Positions 23,875 to 36,372 are shown, counted from the first letter of the stretch. The stretch is 39,440 nt of DNA from Polyangiaceae bacterium (GCA_025453595.1 JALOQB010000023.1:1-39440); one strand, 5' to 3'. Numbers and translations: made by a program. The notes: a model not told the origin generated them from the letters alone.

Positions 23875-24604
23875 CCCCCTGGATATGGAAGCTCCCTGGG
23901 CGGCGCCCCGCCAGGTAATAAGGCTGGAACCCCAGCCCGATGTCCGGGATCGTCCCTGCGCCGACGCAGAGGTAAGGCTGCATCGGCCACCGCTCGCCGT
24001 CGCCAAGCTCGACCTCGACCCGCACCGGCTCGGTCATCCGGCGGATCATCGCCCCGTTCATCGCGGCGCTCACGATGCCCCGCGCCAGGGTCTTGGCGGC
24101 GGTCCAGGGCGAGGGGGCGCCGGTGTCGTAGTACTCCCGGAGGTAGGCCGGGATCACCCCGATGCCCCAGAGAAAACCCAGCTTCCCCTCGATGTTCATC
24201 GTCCGCTGCTCCACCACCGGGAGGCGTGGGGTCGCCATGTAACGACGCACCAGCCGGTCGAGCAGCCCCTCGGGCTGCCCGCCAGGTAGCCGGAGCGAGT
24301 TGGCCACCGTGTTCATCGTGCCGCCTCGCAGGAAGGCCACCGTCGGCAGCGGCTCGGAGCCGTACACTTCATGGAAGTGCGTGAGCGTCACGTAGTTGGT
24401 GCCGTCTCCCCCCGCTATCCCCAGCACATCGATCTTCTGCCGACGGAAATCTTCCGCCGCCTTCGCCAGCTCTTCGAGCGAGTGAGGCATGGCCACCACC
24501 CCTCGATCTCCGAGCTGACGGGCCAGCCTGGCGCCGGTGCTGGGGTCGCGCCGGTTGGCTCCGGCACGTGGGTTGATCACAAGACCGATCCCGGACATGT
24601 TCAC
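23603..24604 (-). CDS. Diacylglycerol/lipid-kinase family protein (DAGK catalytic domain)
   Basis: 333 residues. [14 protein letters not shown] opens the DAGK fold. The ATP-binding GGDGTN is at 65-70 and RGGTMN at 93-98, both diagnostic for the diacylglycerol/sphingosine/YegS-type kinase family. The C-terminal beta-sandwich follows ([19 protein letters not shown]). The substrate lipid cannot be named. Start codons available are GTG 24604 and ATG 24598. The domain ends near VRIATMN (23665). The last 19 residues are basic and run past the CTTAAG junction, overlapping the convergent DUF4336-like frame by about 270 bp. Confidence 0.85.
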
Positions 24605-24719
24605 CTCGAACGACCACCGTGCCCCCTCGGCTCGGCGCTGTCACGATCCGGTCATGCAACCGCCGTGCAACCGCTGCTTATCCCACATTTTGACGCAACC
24701 CCACGGCGGAAGGCACCTC

Positions 24720-24743
24720 GTTTACGCACCGCGCTGTGTAAAC
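24720..24743. promoter_or_regulatory. GTTTAC-N12-GTAAAC inverted repeat in promoter region
   Basis: It lies in the 286-bp intergenic region between the DAGK-type kinase and the DUF4215 gene. The inner bases extend the symmetry imperfectly (GTTTACGCA facing TGTGTAAAC). A candidate -10 TAGGGT (24811-24816) is about 70 bp downstream. An operator for one or both divergent genes is possible. Confidence 0.35.
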
Positions 24744-24890
24744 CCTTCCGCACAAAACCTTCCGAGGGGGAGAGCCAGCCGACCCACCCTCTTGTTTCTT
24801 GCTCGGCCCCTAGGGTATTTACCCGAGACAATTGCCCTGATCAGGCGCATTTCGTGCCACGACGGTGTGGGCAGCAAGTCGAGCAATCCG

Positions 24891-27959
<3,069 letters not shown>

Positions 27960-28004: not shown

Positions 28005-29399
28005 GTGGCGTCGCCCCTCGCTCGATCGAACCAGCTCCCCTGCGGCGCAGGCATCGGGTTGCGGCCCGAGCTGAGCGCCGACCTGCTGCTCTCGCCGCGC
28101 TCCGCGGATTTCATCGAGGTGGTCGTCGAGGCCTGCCTGGCGTCCCCCCAGGCCCGCCGCGAGGCCATGGCGATGGCCGAGCTCTGGCCCGTCATCCCTC
28201 ACGGGATCAAGCTCTCCCTGGGCAGCGCTGACGGGATCGAGCCCGAGCGGGCCGCGCGCCTGGGGGCCCTGGCCCGCGAGCTCCGGGCGCCGCTCATCAC
28301 CGAGCATGTCGCCTTCGTGCGCGGGGGGTCTCGCGAGATCGGGCACCTCACGCCGCTCCCTTGCACGCCCGACGCGGTGAAGGTGGTGGCGCGCAACGTC
28401 GCCGAGGCGAGGCGGCGTCTGCCCGATGTCCCCCTGCTCCTCGAGAACATCGCCTGGACCTTCCGCTGGCCTGACGACACGATGAGCGAGGCGGCGTTCT
28501 ACACGTCGATCGTCGAGGCCACCGGCTGCGACCTGCTCCTCGATCTCGGCAACCTCCACGCAAACGCCATCAACGAGGGGAAAGACCCGGCGCAGGTGCT
28601 CCTCGACTTCCCCATCGAGCGGGTGTCGATGGTCCACATCGCGGGGGGCGTCCACGAGCACGGGGTTTACCTCGATACCCACGCGCACCCGGTCCCTGAC
28701 CAGGTCTTCGCGCTCCTCGATCTGCTCTGCGAGCGCCGGGGGCCTGTGCCCGTGGTCCTCGAGCGTGACGCGCTGTTCCCGCCTTTTCGTGAGCTGGAGC
28801 GCGAGCTGAGCCGGGCCCGGCAGGCCCAGCAACCCCACGACGGCGCCGTCTCCCCGCCCTGCGAGGCCCCCCCGCCGTGGCCTCCCCCGGAGCCCGCCGC
28901 CTGCGAGGCCCTGCTCGAGGCCCAGCGTCGCCTCGCGCTGCTCCTCACCTCCCTCGACGAGCCCCCCTCCGCCGAGGTCGCCTCTTACGGCGCCAAGGCC
29001 ATCGCCCTCAGCCGGGAGATCCTCCGGCGAAAGCGCGTCGACGACGCCCTGCCCCTGCTGCCTCGCCTCTCCCAGCGCCGCGACCTCCTCGAACCCATCG
29101 CGTACCGCTGCGTCGCCGGGGCTCCGCGCCCCGACCGCCTCGCCGCCATCGCGGACGCCTTGCTCATCGCCCGGGGCGCCGAGGAGCACCCCTCGCTCCG
29201 GCGCGCTGCCCTCCTCGATGGCCTCGTCCTGGAGGCTCGCTTTCTCCTCAAGGGCCCCGAGGTCCAGCCTCGCCGCGCCCCTTTCTTCCGCCGCCGTGGC
29301 CTCCCCGGGGGCCAGGTTTGCTGGATCTTCAAGGGCCCCGGCGCGTCCGCCAGCGTTCGCCTCCTCGAACCCGCCCCGCCCCTCTCCCGAGCCCCATGA
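28005..29399 (+). CDS. DUF692/MNIO-family multinuclear iron enzyme with C-terminal extension
   Basis: 464 residues from GTG 28005. The first 265 residues are a DUF692 TIM barrel (MbnB/TglH/BufB family), which use a di- or tri-iron centre to rearrange Cys or other residues in peptides. The candidate metal and active-site residues are all present: H66 (PHG), E100-H101 (TEHVAF), E147-N148 (LLENIAW), D180/N183/H185 (LLLDLGNLHAN), H211 (MVHIAGG), D224/H226 (DTHAHPV) and E253 (VVLERD). After a Pro-rich linker come about 170 residues of helical sequence ending RRGLPGGQVCWIFKGPG, not a standard part of the family. No separate DUF2063-type partner gene is present, so the extension may serve that role. 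A TTG at 27987 is a less likely start. Confidence 0.85.
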   Translation: MASPLARSNQLPCGAGIGLRPELSADLLLSPRSADFIEVVVEACLASPQARREAMAMAELWPVIPHGIKLSLGSADGIEPERAARLGALARELRAPLITEHVAFVRGGSREIGHLTPLPCTPDAVKVVARNVAEARRRLPDVPLLLENIAWTFRWPDDTMSEAAFYTSIVEATGCDLLLDLGNLHANAINEGKDPAQVLLDFPIERVSMVHIAGGVHEHGVYLDTHAHPVPDQVFALLDLLCERRGPVPVVLERDALFPPFRELERELSRARQAQQPHDGAVSPPCEAPPPWPPPEPAACEALLEAQRRLALLLTSLDEPPSAEVASYGAKAIALSREILRRKRVDDALPLLPRLSQRRDLLEPIAYRCVAGAPRPDRLAAIADALLIARGAEEHPSLRRAALLDGLVLEARFLLKGPEVQPRRAPFFRRRGLPGGQVCWIFKGPGASASVRLLEPAPPLSRAP

Positions 29400-29438
29400 C
29401 CGCTTCCTCTCCTCTCCTACCCCTCGCCCCGGCGCACC

Positions 29439-30818
29439 GTGGCTGAACCCACGGAGCCTGCCTTCGAGGTCCTCGACGCCCTCGACGGCTTCTGTCATCT
29501 CGAACGGCGCGATCGCTCCCTCGACGGCTCCGTTCCCCTCCGCGTCATGCAAGGCTGCGTCCCTTTCCTGGAGGGCAACGCCTTCGGCTTCCAGATCGTC
29601 CTCCAGAAACCCATGCACATCGAGCGCCACCTCGGTGCCTGGTGGTTCGCGCCGGACCCCGCCCACGTCCACTCCTTGCGCCGCTCCCTCGACGCCAACC
29701 TGCCTCGACTCCAGGCCCAGGGGTTCCTCTCCTCGGCCTGGGCGACGCACCTCCAGCGCTCCTCGTTCTACTGGGACGAAGGTGGCCTCCGGGGGCCCCG
29801 GCTCCGCCTCTGGACCGGCCTGCTCGTGCGCCCCCTCCGCGGCCGCTGGCTCCGCGTCTCCGACGCCACCAACCGGCGCTGTACCGCCGTGTCTATGGAA
29901 ACGTTCTATATGGAGGAAAGCGACAGGTTCACCCCCCTCGTGCTCTCCTTCCGCCCGAAGCACCCGGACCGTATCCGGCTGCAAGAGGAGATCGCCACGC
30001 TGGCGCCGCTGGCGCCCCGCGTGCGCTTCGAGCAGGCGCCGCTCGCCCAGGACCCGGGGGTCGGCGAGGCCCACGGGCGGTTCTACGATGCGGCCTACTT
30101 CGCGACGAAGAAGGGCGAGATCACGAGGAAGTACCGCAAGCTTGTCCAGCACCAGGGCGAGCAAGAAGACGAGGGAGGGGAGGCCACCGCGCGCCTGATC
30201 CACGCGGCCCCCGCGAGGTTCCTGTCCCATGCGATCGAGCCCGCGGGGCCCTTCCTCGGGCCCTCCTCCACGGCACCGGCGCCGGCCCCCCGGGGCCCTG
30301 GCCGGCTGGAGCAGGTGCTCTTCCGCAACCTGGTGACCTTCCGCACCTCCTTCGATGGCCACACGGTGACGACGGATCCAGACTGGGGGGTGCTGCCGGA
30401 GGCCGCGGCCGGGATAGAAAAAAACTTCACGGAGGCCCTCGGGAAACCCTTTGTGGAAGAGCACCGCGGAGCGCTCTGGTACCTGACGAAGTACTTCACC
30501 CCCCACCCCCCCGGTGAGCCGCATTTTTTCGTGAAACCCTGGTCCTTTGTGGTCACACCGCCCGGGTGGTCGTGCCTGCTGGATGGGGTGCATGGCGAGG
30601 GGTACGACATCCTGCGGGGGGTGGTCTCCACCGACCAGTTCCACGCGACCCCGGCGGTCTTCTGGATCCACACCCTCCACCGGACCCTGCGGGTGCCCCA
30701 CGGGGCCCCCTTGCTGCGGGTGATCCCGGTGCCTCGCGCGCTGCTCCGCGAGGGGTTTCGCACCGTATCGTTCCTCGACGTCGCCCCTCCCTCTTCTGCC
30801 CTGGAGCCCCGGTCTTGA
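29439..30818 (+). CDS. Unknown two-lobed protein, DUF6065-like in pattern
   Basis: 459 residues, start GTG 29439, 39 bp after the MNIO gene. Not firmly recognised. The N-lobe has VMQGCVPFLEGNAFGFQIVL and HLGAWWFAP, the C-lobe HFFVKPWSFVVTPPGWSCLL, GVVSTDQFHATPAVFWIH and GAPLLRVIPVPRALL. The order of an early Cys/Gly-aromatic segment followed by a GW/TPPGW segment and a closing IPVPR strand recalls DUF6065 proteins, from memory only. There are no membrane segments or signal peptide, so it is probably cytoplasmic. Its stop overlaps the TTG start of the oxygenase (TTGA), so the two are likely made together. A role as partner or substrate-handling protein for the flanking iron enzymes is inference. 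Confidence 0.75.
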   Translation: MAEPTEPAFEVLDALDGFCHLERRDRSLDGSVPLRVMQGCVPFLEGNAFGFQIVLQKPMHIERHLGAWWFAPDPAHVHSLRRSLDANLPRLQAQGFLSSAWATHLQRSSFYWDEGGLRGPRLRLWTGLLVRPLRGRWLRVSDATNRRCTAVSMETFYMEESDRFTPLVLSFRPKHPDRIRLQEEIATLAPLAPRVRFEQAPLAQDPGVGEAHGRFYDAAYFATKKGEITRKYRKLVQHQGEQEDEGGEATARLIHAAPARFLSHAIEPAGPFLGPSSTAPAPAPRGPGRLEQVLFRNLVTFRTSFDGHTVTTDPDWGVLPEAAAGIEKNFTEALGKPFVEEHRGALWYLTKYFTPHPPGEPHFFVKPWSFVVTPPGWSCLLDGVHGEGYDILRGVVSTDQFHATPAVFWIHTLHRTLRVPHGAPLLRVIPVPRALLREGFRTVSFLDVAPPSSALEPRS

Positions 30819-31771
30819 CCCTCTGCCCTCAGCTCTCGACCCACGACCCGGCGGTGCTCCGCGAGACCCTCGCCAGGTACGGCTGCGCGCTGCTCTCGCC
30901 TTCCTCCTCGTGGCGCGTCGAGGACGCCTCGCGAGACCCCTGGGGGCAGGCCGAGAAGCTCCTGGGGGTGCGCCCTCGCATGGTCGAGCGGCAACCGATC
31001 AAGGCCGTGGAGGGGGGGCGCTCCTTTGCGTCCACCAACCGCTTCACCCCCCTGCACTCGGACAGCCAGCTCTACGAAGGGGGGCCGCCAGATCTGCAGA
31101 TCATGGCCTGCCTGCACGCGGACGAGCGCACCGGGGAGAGCTTGCTGCTCGATACCTGGCCCCTGCTCGACGCCATCGAGCAAGAGGACCCGGCGCTGCA
31201 CGAGGCGCTGCTGCGCTCGCCCCGCCGGCACCCTTTTGTCTTCGGTGAGCTGACCGGCCCCACGGTCGCCCTCCGCGGCGGCGCCCTGGCCTTCACCCAC
31301 TCGCCGCGCTCCCACGAGGACCCGGTGGGCCAGCGCCTCGCCCCCTGGATGGAGCGGTTCCCACCCCTGCGCCAGCCGGTTCGCACCGGCGAGACCTTGC
31401 TGGTGGACAACCGGCGCCTGCTCCACGGCCGCATGGCTTTCCTCGACCCGCGGCGAGAATTCACCCGCCTCCTGGTCTGGCTCCCCGGGGCCCTGGGGCG
31501 CCACCCTCGCCGTGAGGCCCTCGCCCGGACCGTCGCCGCGGAGACCGCCAGCGCCATGGCAGATCTGACCCCCCTGGAGCGAGGTCGCGCGGGTTTGTCC
31601 GTGGAAAACGACCCCGGAGCCGAGGAGAAATTGCAGGTGGTGCTGGCGATGCTCCGGGGAGCTCCTCCCGGGGGGCTCGCCGCGCGCCACCGGATCCCGG
31701 AGCCTGAGCTCTACGCCTGGCGCGACGAGGCGCTCCGGGCAGCCCGGGCGGCCCTCGCGCGCAAGGGGTGA
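30815..31771 (+). CDS. TauD/TfdA-type Fe(II)/2-oxoglutarate oxygenase with C-terminal HTH
   Basis: 318 residues from TTG 30815, inside the upstream stop (TTGA). The facial triad is H81-x-D83 (TPLHSDSQ) and H204 (LLHGRMAF), with the 2-oxoglutarate Arg nearby (R214 or R218 in DPRREFTR). VDNRRLLHGR is typical of TauD and amino-acid or peptidyl hydroxylases such as AsnO/VioC. Residues about 270-316 (EEKLQVVLAMLRGA...LAARHRIPEPELYAWRDEAL) read like the helix-turn-helix of an IS3-type OrfA transposase. That domain is unexpected on an oxygenase. The substrate is unknown; tight linkage to the MNIO gene suggests a shared one. Confidence 0.83.
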   Translation: MTLCPQLSTHDPAVLRETLARYGCALLSPSSSWRVEDASRDPWGQAEKLLGVRPRMVERQPIKAVEGGRSFASTNRFTPLHSDSQLYEGGPPDLQIMACLHADERTGESLLLDTWPLLDAIEQEDPALHEALLRSPRRHPFVFGELTGPTVALRGGALAFTHSPRSHEDPVGQRLAPWMERFPPLRQPVRTGETLLVDNRRLLHGRMAFLDPRREFTRLLVWLPGALGRHPRREALARTVAAETASAMADLTPLERGRAGLSVENDPGAEEKLQVVLAMLRGAPPGGLAARHRIPEPELYAWRDEALRAARAALARKG

Positions 31772-31810
31772 CCCGGGGCGGAACGGGCCTTGCTTGGCCG
31801 TTGACCCCGC

Positions 31811-33031
31811 ATGAACAAGGTTGCGAGGGCGGTCGGAGGCTCGGGGCAAACTCGCCGGAGACAGGGAAGGATCGCGGCGGCGTTCACGTTGCTGCTGTCG
31901 TCCACGGTTCACGCGGAGGAAGCCCCGCTGCAGATGGACTGGGAAAAACCCACCCGGTGCCTCCGGGACGGCAAGGGGCTGGCCTGGCGTGTACAGTGCG
32001 ATGCAGAGACCAGGGTGTGCGTCTACGCACCGGAGGACGAGCTCGACGCGGACGGCAACCGCCTCCGACCCCTGGAGCGCATGCCCCCTTGCAGCGACGA
32101 GGGGCTCTTCGATCAGGACGCGCTGCGCGCCGACGGGTTTCGCCTGGTACAGGGCGTCCCGCCGACCCCTTATGGCTGGTACCGGGACCGCTTCGGCAAG
32201 GTGTTTCAGTACAATTTTGACCTGCACCGGCGCCTCTACCTGGGCGGCGGCTGGGCCCCCGAGATCCGGGACGGGGAGCAGAACGCCAGGCGCTCGGTGA
32301 TCGAGTTTGGCCTGCTCGAGTGGCAATCTTACAACCCTCTGGATCGCAACCCGAAGCGCCACCGGCTCCGGCTGGTGGAAGGTGAACTCCGGCTGGCCCC
32401 CTTCTGGGCGACCGGGTACCTGCTGCGCTACGATGTGTCGGTGAAACGCCGCGATCCGCTGGTGCGCTTCACCACCTTTTTCGGCGAACCCCGACGCTAC
32501 GACATGCGCTCCCGCATGGGGATGTTCCTGGAGGTGGCGGGCCTGGAGGTGCGCGACACTGCCGCGGGCAACGCGACCGTATGGAGGTACGGCACCACCA
32601 ACCTCACCTTTGACCTCTGGCAGTCGAGCGATCTGTACTCGTTCTTCCGGATACGGGGCGGCGGCCTGGTCGAGCGGCTTCTCCTGGAGCAAGGGGCGAC
32701 GCAGAACCGGACGTCCCTGACGCCAAACGTGGCCGCCGAGCTCGATTGGACGCTGGACGCCAACGGCTTCCACCACCTGACGGGGCTCGCCTCGCTCGAG
32801 TCTCCCCGGACGATCAACCCCAGGGACGGCCAGCAGACCTTTGCCACGCGCCTCCGGGGCGAGCTGGGGTACGAGGTGATCGCCCTCGCCCTCAACGACC
32901 AGCCCATCTCGTTGCGATTCTCCACCAGCGCGACGCGGCGCGACGACATCCCCGGGTTTTCAACCGGCTGGATCTACTCCGCCACCGCAGGCCTGCGCTT
33001 CAGCCTGTGGGCCCCCGCGCGAAACCGATGA
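31811..33031 (+). CDS. Exported protein, probable outer-membrane beta-barrel
   Basis: 406 residues with an N-terminal basic stretch (RTTRRRQ-like), a hydrophobic segment IAAAFTLLLSSTVHA and cleavage near AEEAP. Two early cysteine pairs (CLRDGKG...CDAETRVC) precede a long beta-rich region with alternating aromatic/polar strands (YGWYRDRFGKVFQYNFDLHR, RLYLGGGWAPEI, SDLYSFFRIRGGG, GWIYSATAGLRFSLW). It ends on an aromatic-containing strand, as outer-membrane barrels do. No named family is recognised. It lies 39 bp after the oxygenase gene and overlaps the next gene by 4 bp, and so probably belongs to the same transcript. Confidence 0.68.
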   Translation: MNKVARAVGGSGQTRRRQGRIAAAFTLLLSSTVHAEEAPLQMDWEKPTRCLRDGKGLAWRVQCDAETRVCVYAPEDELDADGNRLRPLERMPPCSDEGLFDQDALRADGFRLVQGVPPTPYGWYRDRFGKVFQYNFDLHRRLYLGGGWAPEIRDGEQNARRSVIEFGLLEWQSYNPLDRNPKRHRLRLVEGELRLAPFWATGYLLRYDVSVKRRDPLVRFTTFFGEPRRYDMRSRMGMFLEVAGLEVRDTAAGNATVWRYGTTNLTFDLWQSSDLYSFFRIRGGGLVERLLLEQGATQNRTSLTPNVAAELDWTLDANGFHHLTGLASLESPRTINPRDGQQTFATRLRGELGYEVIALALNDQPISLRFSTSATRRDDIPGFSTGWIYSATAGLRFSLWAPARNR

Positions 33032-33885
33032 AGCGTCTTGGCCTGGCCCTCTGGCTCGCCACCGCCGTCGCGCAAGGGCAGCCCGCCCAGGGGCCACCCG
33101 CGGCGAACCCTCCGGAGCGCTGCGAGGCGAACCTGGGGGAGGGCCCTCCCTCGGTGCTCTGCTTTGATCCCGGGCACCGGCTCTACCTGTCGGGCGGCAC
33201 CGCAGGGCTCGGGTGGGGCATCCAGCTCCGTCACCTGATCCGGACCGATGACCCGGGGCTCCACTGGCGCTCCGAACACGGATTGCTGCGGGGCACCGTG
33301 GCGGCGGATCGCTTCCGTGGCGCGGTCTACGAGGGGCGCTTTCTTCGCCACTCCCGCGAGGGGTACCTGCTGCTACCGACCTCACCCCCGCGCCGCATCC
33401 CGGTCCCCTTTGACGTGGGGCTGGAGACCTCCGTGGGGCGCCTGGAGGGGCGCCTCTCCTCCGACGAGATCCGCATGAACGCCGTGCGCGGCGCCTTGTT
33501 GCTGGATTTCGCGCGCAGCGACACCTTCCGCCGCCGCGCCGCCCTGGGCGCCGTCGCCCGCTGGGATCTTCTGGTGGACCGGCGCGCCCCCTCGATCCGG
33601 GAGCAGGCCATCGCCCCCTTCTCCGTCGGCCTTTTGAGCCTCTACGCGGAGTCCGCCAGCGGCCTCACCCTCGCCCAGGTCCAGGCCGAGGCGGGCTACG
33701 CGGCCCTGGGCCGCGGCAGCGGGTGGCGCCCGGTGATCGCCGTCGAGCTGACCGTCGAGCGCGTCCTGCTCGCCCTCAACGACCTGCCCCTGAGCGTGTA
33801 CGCCGCCGGGCGCTACGACGAGCCTGGCGAGGGCTTCCGCGCCGAGCTGGGCCTCCGCTGGGCGCTGCTCTCGGGGCGTCGATGA
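33028..33885 (+). CDS. Exported protein, probable outer-membrane beta-barrel, related in layout to its neighbour
   Basis: 285 residues from ATG 33028, overlapping the previous stop (ATGA). The signal peptide is MKRLGLALWLATAVAQG. Like its neighbour it has a short Cys-containing start (ERCEANLGEG...VLCFDPGHRLYLSGG) and then beta-strand-rich sequence ending LGLRWALLSGRR. The shared plan (CFDPGHRLYLSGG against NFDLHRRLYLGGG, and ALNDLPLSVYAAGRYDE against ALNDQPISLRFSTSATR near the C-terminus) indicates that the two are paralogues. Two hairpins follow directly. Confidence 0.7.
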   Translation: MKRLGLALWLATAVAQGQPAQGPPAANPPERCEANLGEGPPSVLCFDPGHRLYLSGGTAGLGWGIQLRHLIRTDDPGLHWRSEHGLLRGTVAADRFRGAVYEGRFLRHSREGYLLLPTSPPRRIPVPFDVGLETSVGRLEGRLSSDEIRMNAVRGALLLDFARSDTFRRRAALGAVARWDLLVDRRAPSIREQAIAPFSVGLLSLYAESASGLTLAQVQAEAGYAALGRGSGWRPVIAVELTVERVLLALNDLPLSVYAAGRYDEPGEGFRAELGLRWALLSGRR

Positions 33886-33987: not shown

Positions 33988-35001
33988 TCACTTGTTCTTG
34001 GGGGCGTTCTTCGCCTGCTCGAGGGCGATCTCGCGGATGGCGCCGAAGGTGCTGGCGCTGGAGGCACCCTCGATGGACTTGATCGCGAGGCTCTGGGCCT
34101 GGGACACGGCCTCGTTGAGCTGCTTCTGGAGGGTGGCGATGCGAGCGGAGTGCTCCTTGATGGTGTCCTCGAGGGCCTTGATCTTGAGGTCGAAGACGCG
34201 CTTCTCGCCCTCGATCTCCTTGGCGAGGAGGTCGGCCTCGATCTTGGCCTGGTTGAGGGCGATGCCCTTGCCCTCTTCGCGGGCCTTCTTGACGGCGGCC
34301 TCGAGCTTCTGGGGGAACTCGTCGACCTGCTTCTTGGCGTCGGCGTAGAGCTTCTCCTGCTCGGCGATGGTCTTCTCGCGCTCGTCCCACTCCTTCTTCT
34401 TCTTGGCCTGGAACTCGGCGAGGTCAGCCTCGGCGTGCTTCTTCTGGAACTCGTAGGCGTCCTTCTCGAGCTCGCGCTTCTGCTGGAGCTGGTAGGTGTA
34501 CTCCTGGCGCTCGCGCTCGATGAGCTTGCTGTACGCCTCGTTGTCCTCGGAGACGGAGCGAGCGCGGTCTTCCTTGGTCTTCTCCCAGCCCTTGCGGAGG
34601 TTGGTCAGCTCGGTGTCGAAGGCCTCCTGCTTCTCGGCGAGGGTCTTCTGGTGCTGCTCGGCGGCGAGCTGGTACTCGGCGATGATGGTGGCGAGGGAGT
34701 TGTCCTTGAGCTCGACGCCGTGGAGCTCGCGGATCTGGCGGATCGTGGTCTCGGTCTCGGTATGGAGCTCCTGGAGACGGGAGGCCTCGGCGGACTGCTT
34801 GGCGGCGAGCTCGTTGAGCGCGGAGCCGAGGGTGGAGCGGGTCTGCGCGAGGTTGGAGATGATCTCTTGCATGGTGGCGCTCGACAGCGGCGTTTCAGGG
34901 AGAGAGACGGAGGAAGAGACGGCGGAGGGGGCCTCGGCGGCGGGGCGCGGGGCGGGGGCGGGGCGGGCGGTCTTGCGGGGAGGAGTACGCTTTGCGGCCA
35001 T
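33988..35001 (-). CDS. Coiled-coil protein, paralogue of upstream gene
   Basis: 337 residues. The basic Pro/Ala head (MAAKRTPPRKTARPAPAP) is followed from about residue 45 by almost continuous heptad-rich, Glu/Lys/Gln-rich sequence predicting a long alpha-helical coiled coil (for example EKQEAFDTELTNLRKGWEKT). The C-terminal 120 residues (FPQKLEAAVKKAREEGKG..., then LAIKSIEGAS) align with the end of the upstream protein. There is no signal peptide or membrane segment. Filament-forming or scaffold function is inferred from architecture only. AAAGGAAA precedes the ATG; it lies 15 bp after its paralogue. Confidence 0.85.
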   Translation of the reverse strand: MAAKRTPPRKTARPAPAPRPAAEAPSAVSSSVSLPETPLSSATMQEIISNLAQTRSTLGSALNELAAKQSAEASRLQELHTETETTIRQIRELHGVELKDNSLATIIAEYQLAAEQHQKTLAEKQEAFDTELTNLRKGWEKTKEDRARSVSEDNEAYSKLIERERQEYTYQLQQKRELEKDAYEFQKKHAEADLAEFQAKKKKEWDEREKTIAEQEKLYADAKKQVDEFPQKLEAAVKKAREEGKGIALNQAKIEADLLAKEIEGEKRVFDLKIKALEDTIKEHSARIATLQKQLNEAVSQAQSLAIKSIEGASSASTFGAIREIALEQAKNAPKNK

Positions 35002-35016
35002 GGTCGTTTCCTTTCA

Positions 35017-36024
35017 TCAAGAGGCGTTGGCGGCCTTGGCCTGGCGGGTGCTGCCCTCGACGGCCCGGATGGCGAGTTCCTGGACCTCGCGGTTGGCGGT
35101 CTGGAGCTGGGTGGTGAGCGAGTCGATCTGGGCCTGCAGCTTCGTCGCCTGCTCTTCGAGGGACTTGATCTGAAGCTCGTACACCTTGCGGTTCGCCTCG
35201 ACTTCCTTCTCGAGGAGCCGCGCCTTGACGCGGGCGTCGCTGTGGGCGTCCTTGATCGACTCTTCACGGGCCTTCTTCACGGCGTCCTCGAGCTCCTGCG
35301 GGAGGGTGGCGATGCGGGCCTGGTTCGCCTCGAACTCGGCCTTCTTCTCCGCCAGCGCCTTCTCGCGCTCGGTCCAGGCCTTCTCCTTGGTCTGGGTCGT
35401 CTCCGAGATGTCGCGCTCGATCTTGCGCTTCTTCTCGTTGAACGCGTCGGTCTCGACCTTGTGCTTGCGCTCCAGGTCGTAGATGAAGTCGGCCTCGCCC
35501 TTGGCCCGGTTCTTCTTCTCCTGCTCCTCGGACTCCTTGCGGGAGATCTCGAGCTGCTTGCGCTCCTTCTCCCACTTGGCCTTGGTGTTCTCGATCTCCT
35601 GGTTGAGCGTCTGCCGCTTGGCGTTCTGCTCTTCCTCGCGCTGGCGCAGCTCTTCCTTGTTCTCCAGCGTCTGCACGTGGAGCGCGTCCGCCGCGATCTT
35701 CACGTCGCTCACGAGCTTGGCGTGCCGGGTCTCGATCTCGATCGCCTGGCGCAGCTCCTCCAGCTTCGCGTTCTCCTCCAGCAGCCGGGCCAGCAGCTCG
35801 TCCACCTTCGTGCCGAAGGTCAGCTGCAGATCCGCGACGCCCTTCACGATGCTCTCCACCGTGTACTTCGAGGCATCGTCGACGATCTGCCGCTCCTTCG
35901 CCCGGGCGGCCTGCTCTTCCTTCGTCACCACCCGGCTGGTCTGGCCCTGGTGCTCCTCCACAAGCTGGTGGAAGAGGGACGTGATCTCATCTTTCGACAG
36001 CGTAGCGCTCTGCTTCGGCGTCAT
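35017..36024 (-). CDS. Coiled-coil protein, first of a tandem pair
   Basis: 335 residues from ATG 36024, chosen because GAGGG lies 5-6 bp upstream and the first 20 residues (MTPKQSATLSKDEITSLFHQ) look like a proper start; the frame is open to 36111. A short head segment is followed by a long Glu/Lys-rich coiled coil (EIENTKAKWEKERKQLEI and similar) and a conserved tail: LPQELEDAVKKAREESIKD, LLEKEVEANRKVYELQIKSLE, ELAIRAVEGSTRQ. That tail matches LLAKEIEGEKRVFDLKIKALE and LAIKSIEGAS in the next gene. Probably a tandem duplication; the products may form a heteromer. Confidence 0.85.
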   Translation of the reverse strand: MTPKQSATLSKDEITSLFHQLVEEHQGQTSRVVTKEEQAARAKERQIVDDASKYTVESIVKGVADLQLTFGTKVDELLARLLEENAKLEELRQAIEIETRHAKLVSDVKIAADALHVQTLENKEELRQREEEQNAKRQTLNQEIENTKAKWEKERKQLEISRKESEEQEKKNRAKGEADFIYDLERKHKVETDAFNEKKRKIERDISETTQTKEKAWTEREKALAEKKAEFEANQARIATLPQELEDAVKKAREESIKDAHSDARVKARLLEKEVEANRKVYELQIKSLEEQATKLQAQIDSLTTQLQTANREVQELAIRAVEGSTRQAKAANAS

Positions 36025-36372
36025 AATTCCCTCGGTGTGCTTTGGTTTGTGCCGGGTATGGTGGCCAGACACATCAGCCCCTGAACTGCGGTCGCGAATG
36101 CTAACGACCACATCGGGGCCATCTCCAGCGAAAACGTCGTGACGCTACCTTTGCCCACCGCTCCCCCGCCCCGCAAGGGTCCCCCGCGTCCTTGATGGGA
36201 CAAACTATGTCCATCGCTGGGGCCTCGCGCGGTGCTTCCCGGCGCTCCTTGTTACGCGCCGCGTTGCAGGCTCGGGAGGTCTACCGGGGTGAGCCATCGG
36301 GCGAGCCCCCGGGTCCCATGGATCCCCGTGAAACTGGCTACAAGAGGGCCCTCAACAAGGGTATGATGGTTC
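36025..36372. other. Divergent intergenic region
   Basis: 348 bp between the coiled-coil pair and the IgGFc-type lipoprotein. Minus-strand -10-like boxes TAGCAT (36098-36103) and TAGCGT (36142-36147) could serve the coiled-coil genes. At 36194-36215 GGACA-aacta-TGTCC, extended by GAT/ATC with one bulged base, is a possible operator. TATGAT at 36362-36367 faces the lipoprotein. No convincing small gene is seen. Confidence 0.5.
36362..36367 (+). promoter_or_regulatory. Candidate -10 box of a leaderless transcript
   Basis: TATGAT ends 5 bp before ATG 36373. No Shine-Dalgarno is present and no -35 match is clear. Confidence 0.45.

Follow-up and report, generated by a model that had tools for sequence, protein, structure and literature searches.

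We analyzed a 39,440-nucleotide stretch of a draft Polyangiaceae genome (GCA_025453595.1, JALOQB010000023.1; hereafter the window, which is contig C51 of genome G000) and identified three consecutive genes that we propose, with a probability of roughly 0.7, to be the enzymatic half of a TIGR04222-type modification system. They encode a multinuclear non-heme iron-dependent oxidative (MNIO) enzyme, a 459-residue protein and a TauD-family oxygenase, and the candidate substrate, a TIGR04222 membrane protein with a Cys-Gly tail, is encoded on another contig of the same genome (C391). We favor this reading because the gene order is conserved in relatives, the tail is under selection, and the iron ligands of the MNIO and the HxD...H site of TauD are kept. 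It is further supported because the main text of PMC12452194 independently ties Cys-tailed TIGR04222 proteins to MNIOs, and because the C391 genes themselves match the family by profile score, identity and phylogeny.

A conserved gene order in relatives

The three genes and the junction between the first two are laid out in the window as follows.

28005-29399, plus strand: MNIO (DUF692) enzyme, a catalytic TIM barrel with a fused C-terminal domain (Pfam MbnB_TglH_ChrH, E = 7.7e-76)
29400-29438, plus strand: 39-bp junction between the MNIO gene and the gene for the 459-residue protein, the site of two further genes in relatives
29439-30818, plus strand: 459-residue protein with predicted tandem dUTPase-like (beta-clip) lobes, distantly DUF6065-like
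30815-31771, plus strand: TauD-family 2-oxoglutarate (2OG)/Fe(II) oxygenase (PF02668, E = 7.5e-15) with a conserved C-terminal helix-turn-helix-like tail

Relatives of the 459-residue protein turned up in 12 of 97 near genomes, in 30 of 290 genomes of the class and on 16 GTDB contigs, and their neighborhoods were scanned with profiles for members of the set. The named holders of the cluster are mostly Myxococcota (e.g. Sorangium, Minicystis and Labilithrix), and the relatives include Sorangium cellulosum, Minicystis rosea and two Acidobacteriota metagenome-assembled genomes (MAGs; Vicinamibacteria and Terriglobia). The scan revealed co-clustering of the MNIO, the 459-residue protein and TauD well beyond chance, in a fixed order: the MNIO with its C-terminal domain, a nucleotidyltransferase (NTase; PF01909), the TIGR04222 membrane protein, the 459-residue protein and TauD. 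All five genes lie on one contig in 17 loci (L027, L028, L029, L031, L032, L034, L035, L037, L041, L044, L046, L094, L095, L096, L097, L100 and L104), and in two more (L030 and L033) the order is cut solely by a contig edge at the MNIO end; the MNIO frame of L041 and the TIGR04222 frame of L029 each contain a single break as deposited. The initial annotation, which had grouped these three window genes with two more, would have given up that grouping had homologues never clustered elsewhere; those of the MNIO, the 459-residue protein and TauD occur together in the 17 full-length loci. The three belong to a set, conserved in myxobacteria and two acidobacterial genomes, that probably acts as a modification system.

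A divergent group of loci (L047, L048, L049 and L105) keeps the NTase, a TIGR04222-like protein and the 459-residue protein without TauD; in L048, L049 and L105 the opposite strand carries a more distant MNIO, and none was found in L047. This arrangement is what would be expected if the retained trio were the core, with a role unlike that of ribosomally synthesized and post-translationally modified peptides (RiPPs), such as nucleotide-linked signaling or defense, and the MNIO and oxygenase were accessory. The dUTPase-like fold of the 459-residue protein and weak NTase matches to a CBASS cyclase, to MntA and to the PADLOC candidate PDC-S09 (2.5e-11) point the same way. We nevertheless consider such a core quite unlikely, as all NTase matches to named NCBIfam families fall far under curated cut-offs, PADLOC gave no match for the other four proteins, almost all loci that are not truncated by a contig edge have an MNIO adjacent to the core, and we know of no nucleotide-signaling part that resembles the invariant Cys-Gly tail. 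Assignment as a defense system was rejected, the NTase matches being weak and partial.

A Cys-Gly-tailed protein encoded on another contig

The TIGR04222 model matches the candidate precursors of the relatives above its curated cut-off. Across 22 non-duplicate loci the protein carries a tail of four Cys separated by runs of five Gly (C-G5-C-G5-C-G5-C), mostly followed by GG or S, and pairwise identity reaches 99.5% in this 19-residue tail compared to 33% in the rest of the protein. Within the tail, 48% of comparisons show a difference at third codon positions, against 0.24% at the first two; with Gly third positions free and those of Cys partly so, this indicates that selection acts on the protein tail and that the pattern is not a copied DNA repeat. 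Such conservation is what one would expect of a core kept for modification or metal binding, although it does not specify the chemistry. We infer that the TIGR04222 protein is the substrate candidate of the MNIO system and that the Cys of its tail are modified. In the divergent group the tails have other spacing, C-G6-C-G4-C-G4-C or C-G6-C-G8-C.

The initial annotation had found neither a precursor nor a partner protein. For the window this stands, and a scan of it for Cys-Gly patterns of a short precursor peptide found none; for the genome it does not, as C391 (locus L051) carries two genes of the set.

C391 764-1828, minus strand: TIGR04222 gene, profile match of 49 bits against a curated cut-off of 43
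C391 1903-2616, minus strand: NTase gene adjoining the TIGR04222 gene, 63% identical to the Minicystis NTase

No target is visible at the window locus because the target gene lies on this other contig. In the 17 full-length relatives, the NTase and TIGR04222 genes occupy a stretch of about 1.8 kb between the MNIO gene and that of the 459-residue protein. In the window this interval is 39 bp, and the window is the sole locus found in which the MNIO gene abuts that of the 459-residue protein and the NTase and TIGR04222 genes lie elsewhere. The tail encoded on C391, CGGGGGCGGGGGCGGGGGC, is identical to the family consensus. The draft assembly (7.65 Mb, 570 contigs, 81% complete) yielded a single TIGR04222 gene and a single gene for the 459-residue protein, and a second cluster copy was rejected on these single copies. 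Upstream of the C391 pair lies a divergent open reading frame with a choice-of-anchor L match, and the 763 bp of contig beyond the TIGR04222 gene hold no gene for the 459-residue protein, so that a misassembly would require two wrong joins. In a tree of the MNIO and the 459-residue protein, G000 groups with Sorangium and Minicystis; a tree of the NTase and TIGR04222 protein places it in the same wider clade, its position within that clade not being resolved. The most economical interpretation is the splitting, in this genome, of a single ancestral cluster.

The unique junction would also be seen if the MNIO, the 459-residue protein and TauD had become uncoupled from the TIGR04222 protein and either served another substrate now or belonged to a split system in decay. 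A 74-bp gap between the NTase and TIGR04222 genes on C391, tighter in relatives, fits this reading, but all five genes are intact with their catalytic residues kept and the C391 tail has not departed from the consensus, and we regard it as unlikely. Under a split TIGR04222-MNIO system, an MNIO substrate can be encoded far from its enzyme, and the lack of a precursor at a locus does not by itself mark a new kind of system.

The proteins of the set and known MNIO systems

The MNIO of the window scores 257 bits against Pfam MbnB_TglH_ChrH (cut-off 25) and consists of a catalytic TIM barrel (about residues 14-275) and a C-terminal domain of about 170 residues (about 297-455), helical and then beta. 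Its AlphaFold model (pLDDT 87.6) predicts a DUF692 barrel and, after it, about seven helices and five strands. The best Foldseek matches of the model are 3bww, TglH and MbnB, and its fold matches include 8hci, 7dz9 and 7tcr. The nine iron ligands listed for TglH (PMC10880893) correspond to H66, H101, E147, D180, N183, H211, D224, H226 and E253, all invariant in the family alignment (A4). TauD matches PF02668 at 56 bits (cut-off 27), and its HxD...H site and distal Arg (H81, D83, H204 and R218) are invariant in seven aligned homologues. These matches bear out the earlier description of two different iron oxidative enzymes.

The C-terminal domain of the MNIO is conserved in a 13-sequence alignment, and its profile gave no convincing sequence match in Pfam or PDB. 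In known MNIO partners a helical domain at the N-terminus precedes a RiPP recognition element-type domain (main text of PMC12452194; TglI in PMC10880893), and the fused domain has the same helix-then-strand order. HHalign placed it in register with 23 DUF2063 proteins from near the N-terminal L..Q motif onwards, with a weak score (p = 0.02, HH probability 2%). The domain may be a fused partner (DUF2063/PME-like) domain, which is suggestive only. No separate DUF2063 partner was found on C51, and the four DUF2063 matches of the genome are all on other contigs. G000 has five further MNIO genes (L052-L056, on contigs C473, C140, C400, C339 and C267); four of them have a DUF2063 partner next to them or, on C473, fused, and the one on C400 adjoins a BufA2 bufferin precursor (E = 5.5e-33).

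For the 459-residue protein, the AlphaFold model (pLDDT 84) gave dUTPases as top structural matches (Z 9-10). Against the two-lobed monomer of Epstein-Barr virus (EBV) dUTPase, Z was about 10, with a root-mean-square deviation (rmsd) of 5.9 over 218 residues, and the N-terminal lobe aligned with many single-domain dUTPases at an rmsd of about 2.7 over 112 residues. The two lobes also align with each other in register (p = 0.017), in agreement with the two-lobed protein of the initial annotation, and we predict a tandem dUTPase-fold protein resembling that of EBV. At the sequence level, in contrast, the protein has no match to the dUTPase family. A PDB search with its profile returned nothing, Pfam and NCBIfam searches gave no family for it (or for the two barrel proteins described below), and matches to DUF6065 were weak (5 of 14 homologues, best E = 0.0054); a search of 59 genomes of the class for a DUF6065 comparison set found none. 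A C-lobe motif, YLTKYFTPHPPGEPHFFVKPWAF, is nearly invariant in homologues and reads GVVxTD; dUTPases carry a GVID motif. The protein is probably not a dUTPase. At L036, L045 and L111, in Terriglobia and Polyangia MAGs, its family is encoded divergently from a 2OG-FeII_Oxy_3 gene (E = 5.8e-18), a different 2OG oxygenase, and a second neighboring gene has a 2OG-like HxD...H pattern by eye; these loci hint at a recurring link between the fold and 2OG oxygenases.

According to the main text of PMC12452194 (Microb Genom 2025), TIGR04222 proteins with C-terminal Cys tails, mostly from Actinomycetota, are proposed MNIO substrates, and many of the clusters seemingly have no partner, their modification being left open. 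As in those clusters, the relatives described here carry a TIGR04222 membrane protein with a Cys-, Gly- and Ser-rich C-terminal tail beside an MNIO related to bufferin maturases, and there is no DUF2063 partner gene. They differ in occurring in Myxococcota and two Acidobacteriota, in the domain fused to the MNIO, and in the added NTase, tandem dUTPase-fold protein and TauD; in G000, moreover, the substrate candidate is encoded in trans rather than beside the MNIO as in the 17 relatives. That main text makes no mention of NTase, TauD or Myxococcota, and neither the MNIO-fused domain nor the five-gene set was found in it; TIGR04222 as an MNIO substrate had already been proposed there. Our claim, on sequence grounds, is that part of the relatives' TIGR04222-MNIO system lies in the window, with its precursor in trans. 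The initial proposal of a new modification system survives as a conserved MNIO, 459-residue protein and TauD set, which is a variant of the clusters already proposed.

BufB is the closest NCBIfam model to the catalytic domain, but the score of 189.7 bits is below its cut-off of 310, and the separate DUF2063 gene and signal-peptide precursor of bufferin (BufA/BufB/BufC) loci are missing. Methanobactin (MbnB/MbnC) and 3-thiaglutamate (TglH/TglI) enzymes share the DUF692 TIM barrel with a tri-iron site, whereas the MbnB score here is 25 bits against a cut-off of 325, no MbnC or TglI gene was found beside the MNIO, and the proposed substrate is a membrane protein rather than a short free peptide. 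The score for ChrH, the chryseobactin maturase, is also far under cut-off. The locus is, as first annotated, not one for bufferin, methanobactin or 3-thiaglutamate.

Proposed mechanism and adjoining genes

In the mechanism we propose, the N-terminal part of the TIGR04222 substrate would lie in the membrane, and the MNIO would oxidize the Cys of the tail, each of which precedes Gly or Ser; as with other MNIO products, this could yield, for example, thiooxazole or thioamide/oxazolone groups. Where other MNIOs use a separate partner protein, the fused C-terminal domain would take its place. The 459-residue protein, which does not appear to be a working dUTPase, would bind or display the substrate, this carrier role being a guess; TauD would contribute hydroxylation, with the NTase acting through nucleotidyl transfer as an activator or regulator. 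The outcome would be a metal ligand, probably for copper, anchored to the inner membrane on its outer side. The roles of the 459-residue protein, TauD and the NTase, and any copper function, are ones we infer. It is possible, if rather doubtful, that the set represents a new protein-level maturation class in Myxococcota, in which a partner-fused MNIO and a 2OG oxygenase, aided by a tandem dUTPase-fold substrate carrier and an NTase activator, both act on the (Cys-Gly5)3-Cys tail of a membrane protein. The metal ligand so formed would be anchored in the membrane and bear a new modification of side chain or backbone.

Several points weigh against a TIGR04222-type MNIO system. The 459-residue family also occurs without a nearby MNIO (L036, L038, L045, L098, L099 and L111), and TauD is missing from an otherwise typical cluster that keeps the first four genes (L043) as well as from the divergent group. 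One third of TIGR04222-bearing genomes have no MNIO genes according to the main text of PMC12452194. The partner-domain reading of the MNIO C-terminus depends on a weak profile match and is suggestive only. Finally, other copies could be missing from a draft as incomplete as G000, where an assembly error at the junction is conceivable. The clade nonetheless offers a testable case for the question left by the main text of PMC12452194, namely whether and how TIGR04222 proteins are modified and what serves as the missing partner: its 19-residue core is almost invariant, its one MNIO has a fused domain that may be that partner, and its accessory genes form a defined set available from cultured Sorangium or Minicystis.

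Downstream of TauD lie two further genes, which we judge to be outside the system.

31811-33031, plus strand: barrel A, a barrel-like exported protein
33028-33885, plus strand: barrel B, a barrel-like exported protein adjacent to barrel A

We reproduced exactly the coordinates of the five same-strand genes, whose spacing is, in order, a 39-bp gap, a 4-bp overlap, a 39-bp gap and a 4-bp overlap, and found no sigma-70-like promoter or strong forward terminator inside the run (28005-33885). Such spacing, likely giving one transcript, was the ground for treating all five as one system, with the barrels as exported or outer-membrane acceptors. That reading is very improbable and largely refuted by neighborhoods: homologues of the barrels are paired in seven other genomes away from the MNIO cluster, the two genomes holding both (G019 and G039) have them about 0.25 Mb and 2.8 Mb apart, and no barrel homologue was found beside any other MNIO cluster. 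We rejected the barrels as members on these neighborhoods, and the "export system" of the initial annotation found no support; they are likely co-transcribed with the other window genes by position only. A DUF4215 gene near the barrels in G024 was rejected as shared synteny with the window, the match covering common DUF4215 repeats alone. The barrels form an unnamed exported pair, conserved together in at least eight genomes of the order and matching no Pfam family.

Convergent with the barrel genes are two adjoining coiled-coil proteins of similar make-up and no family (33988-36111, minus strand). On the other side, a large protein with 11 Cys-rich DUF4215 repeats and a propeller-like C-terminal part (24537-27959) ends 45 bp upstream of the MNIO start.

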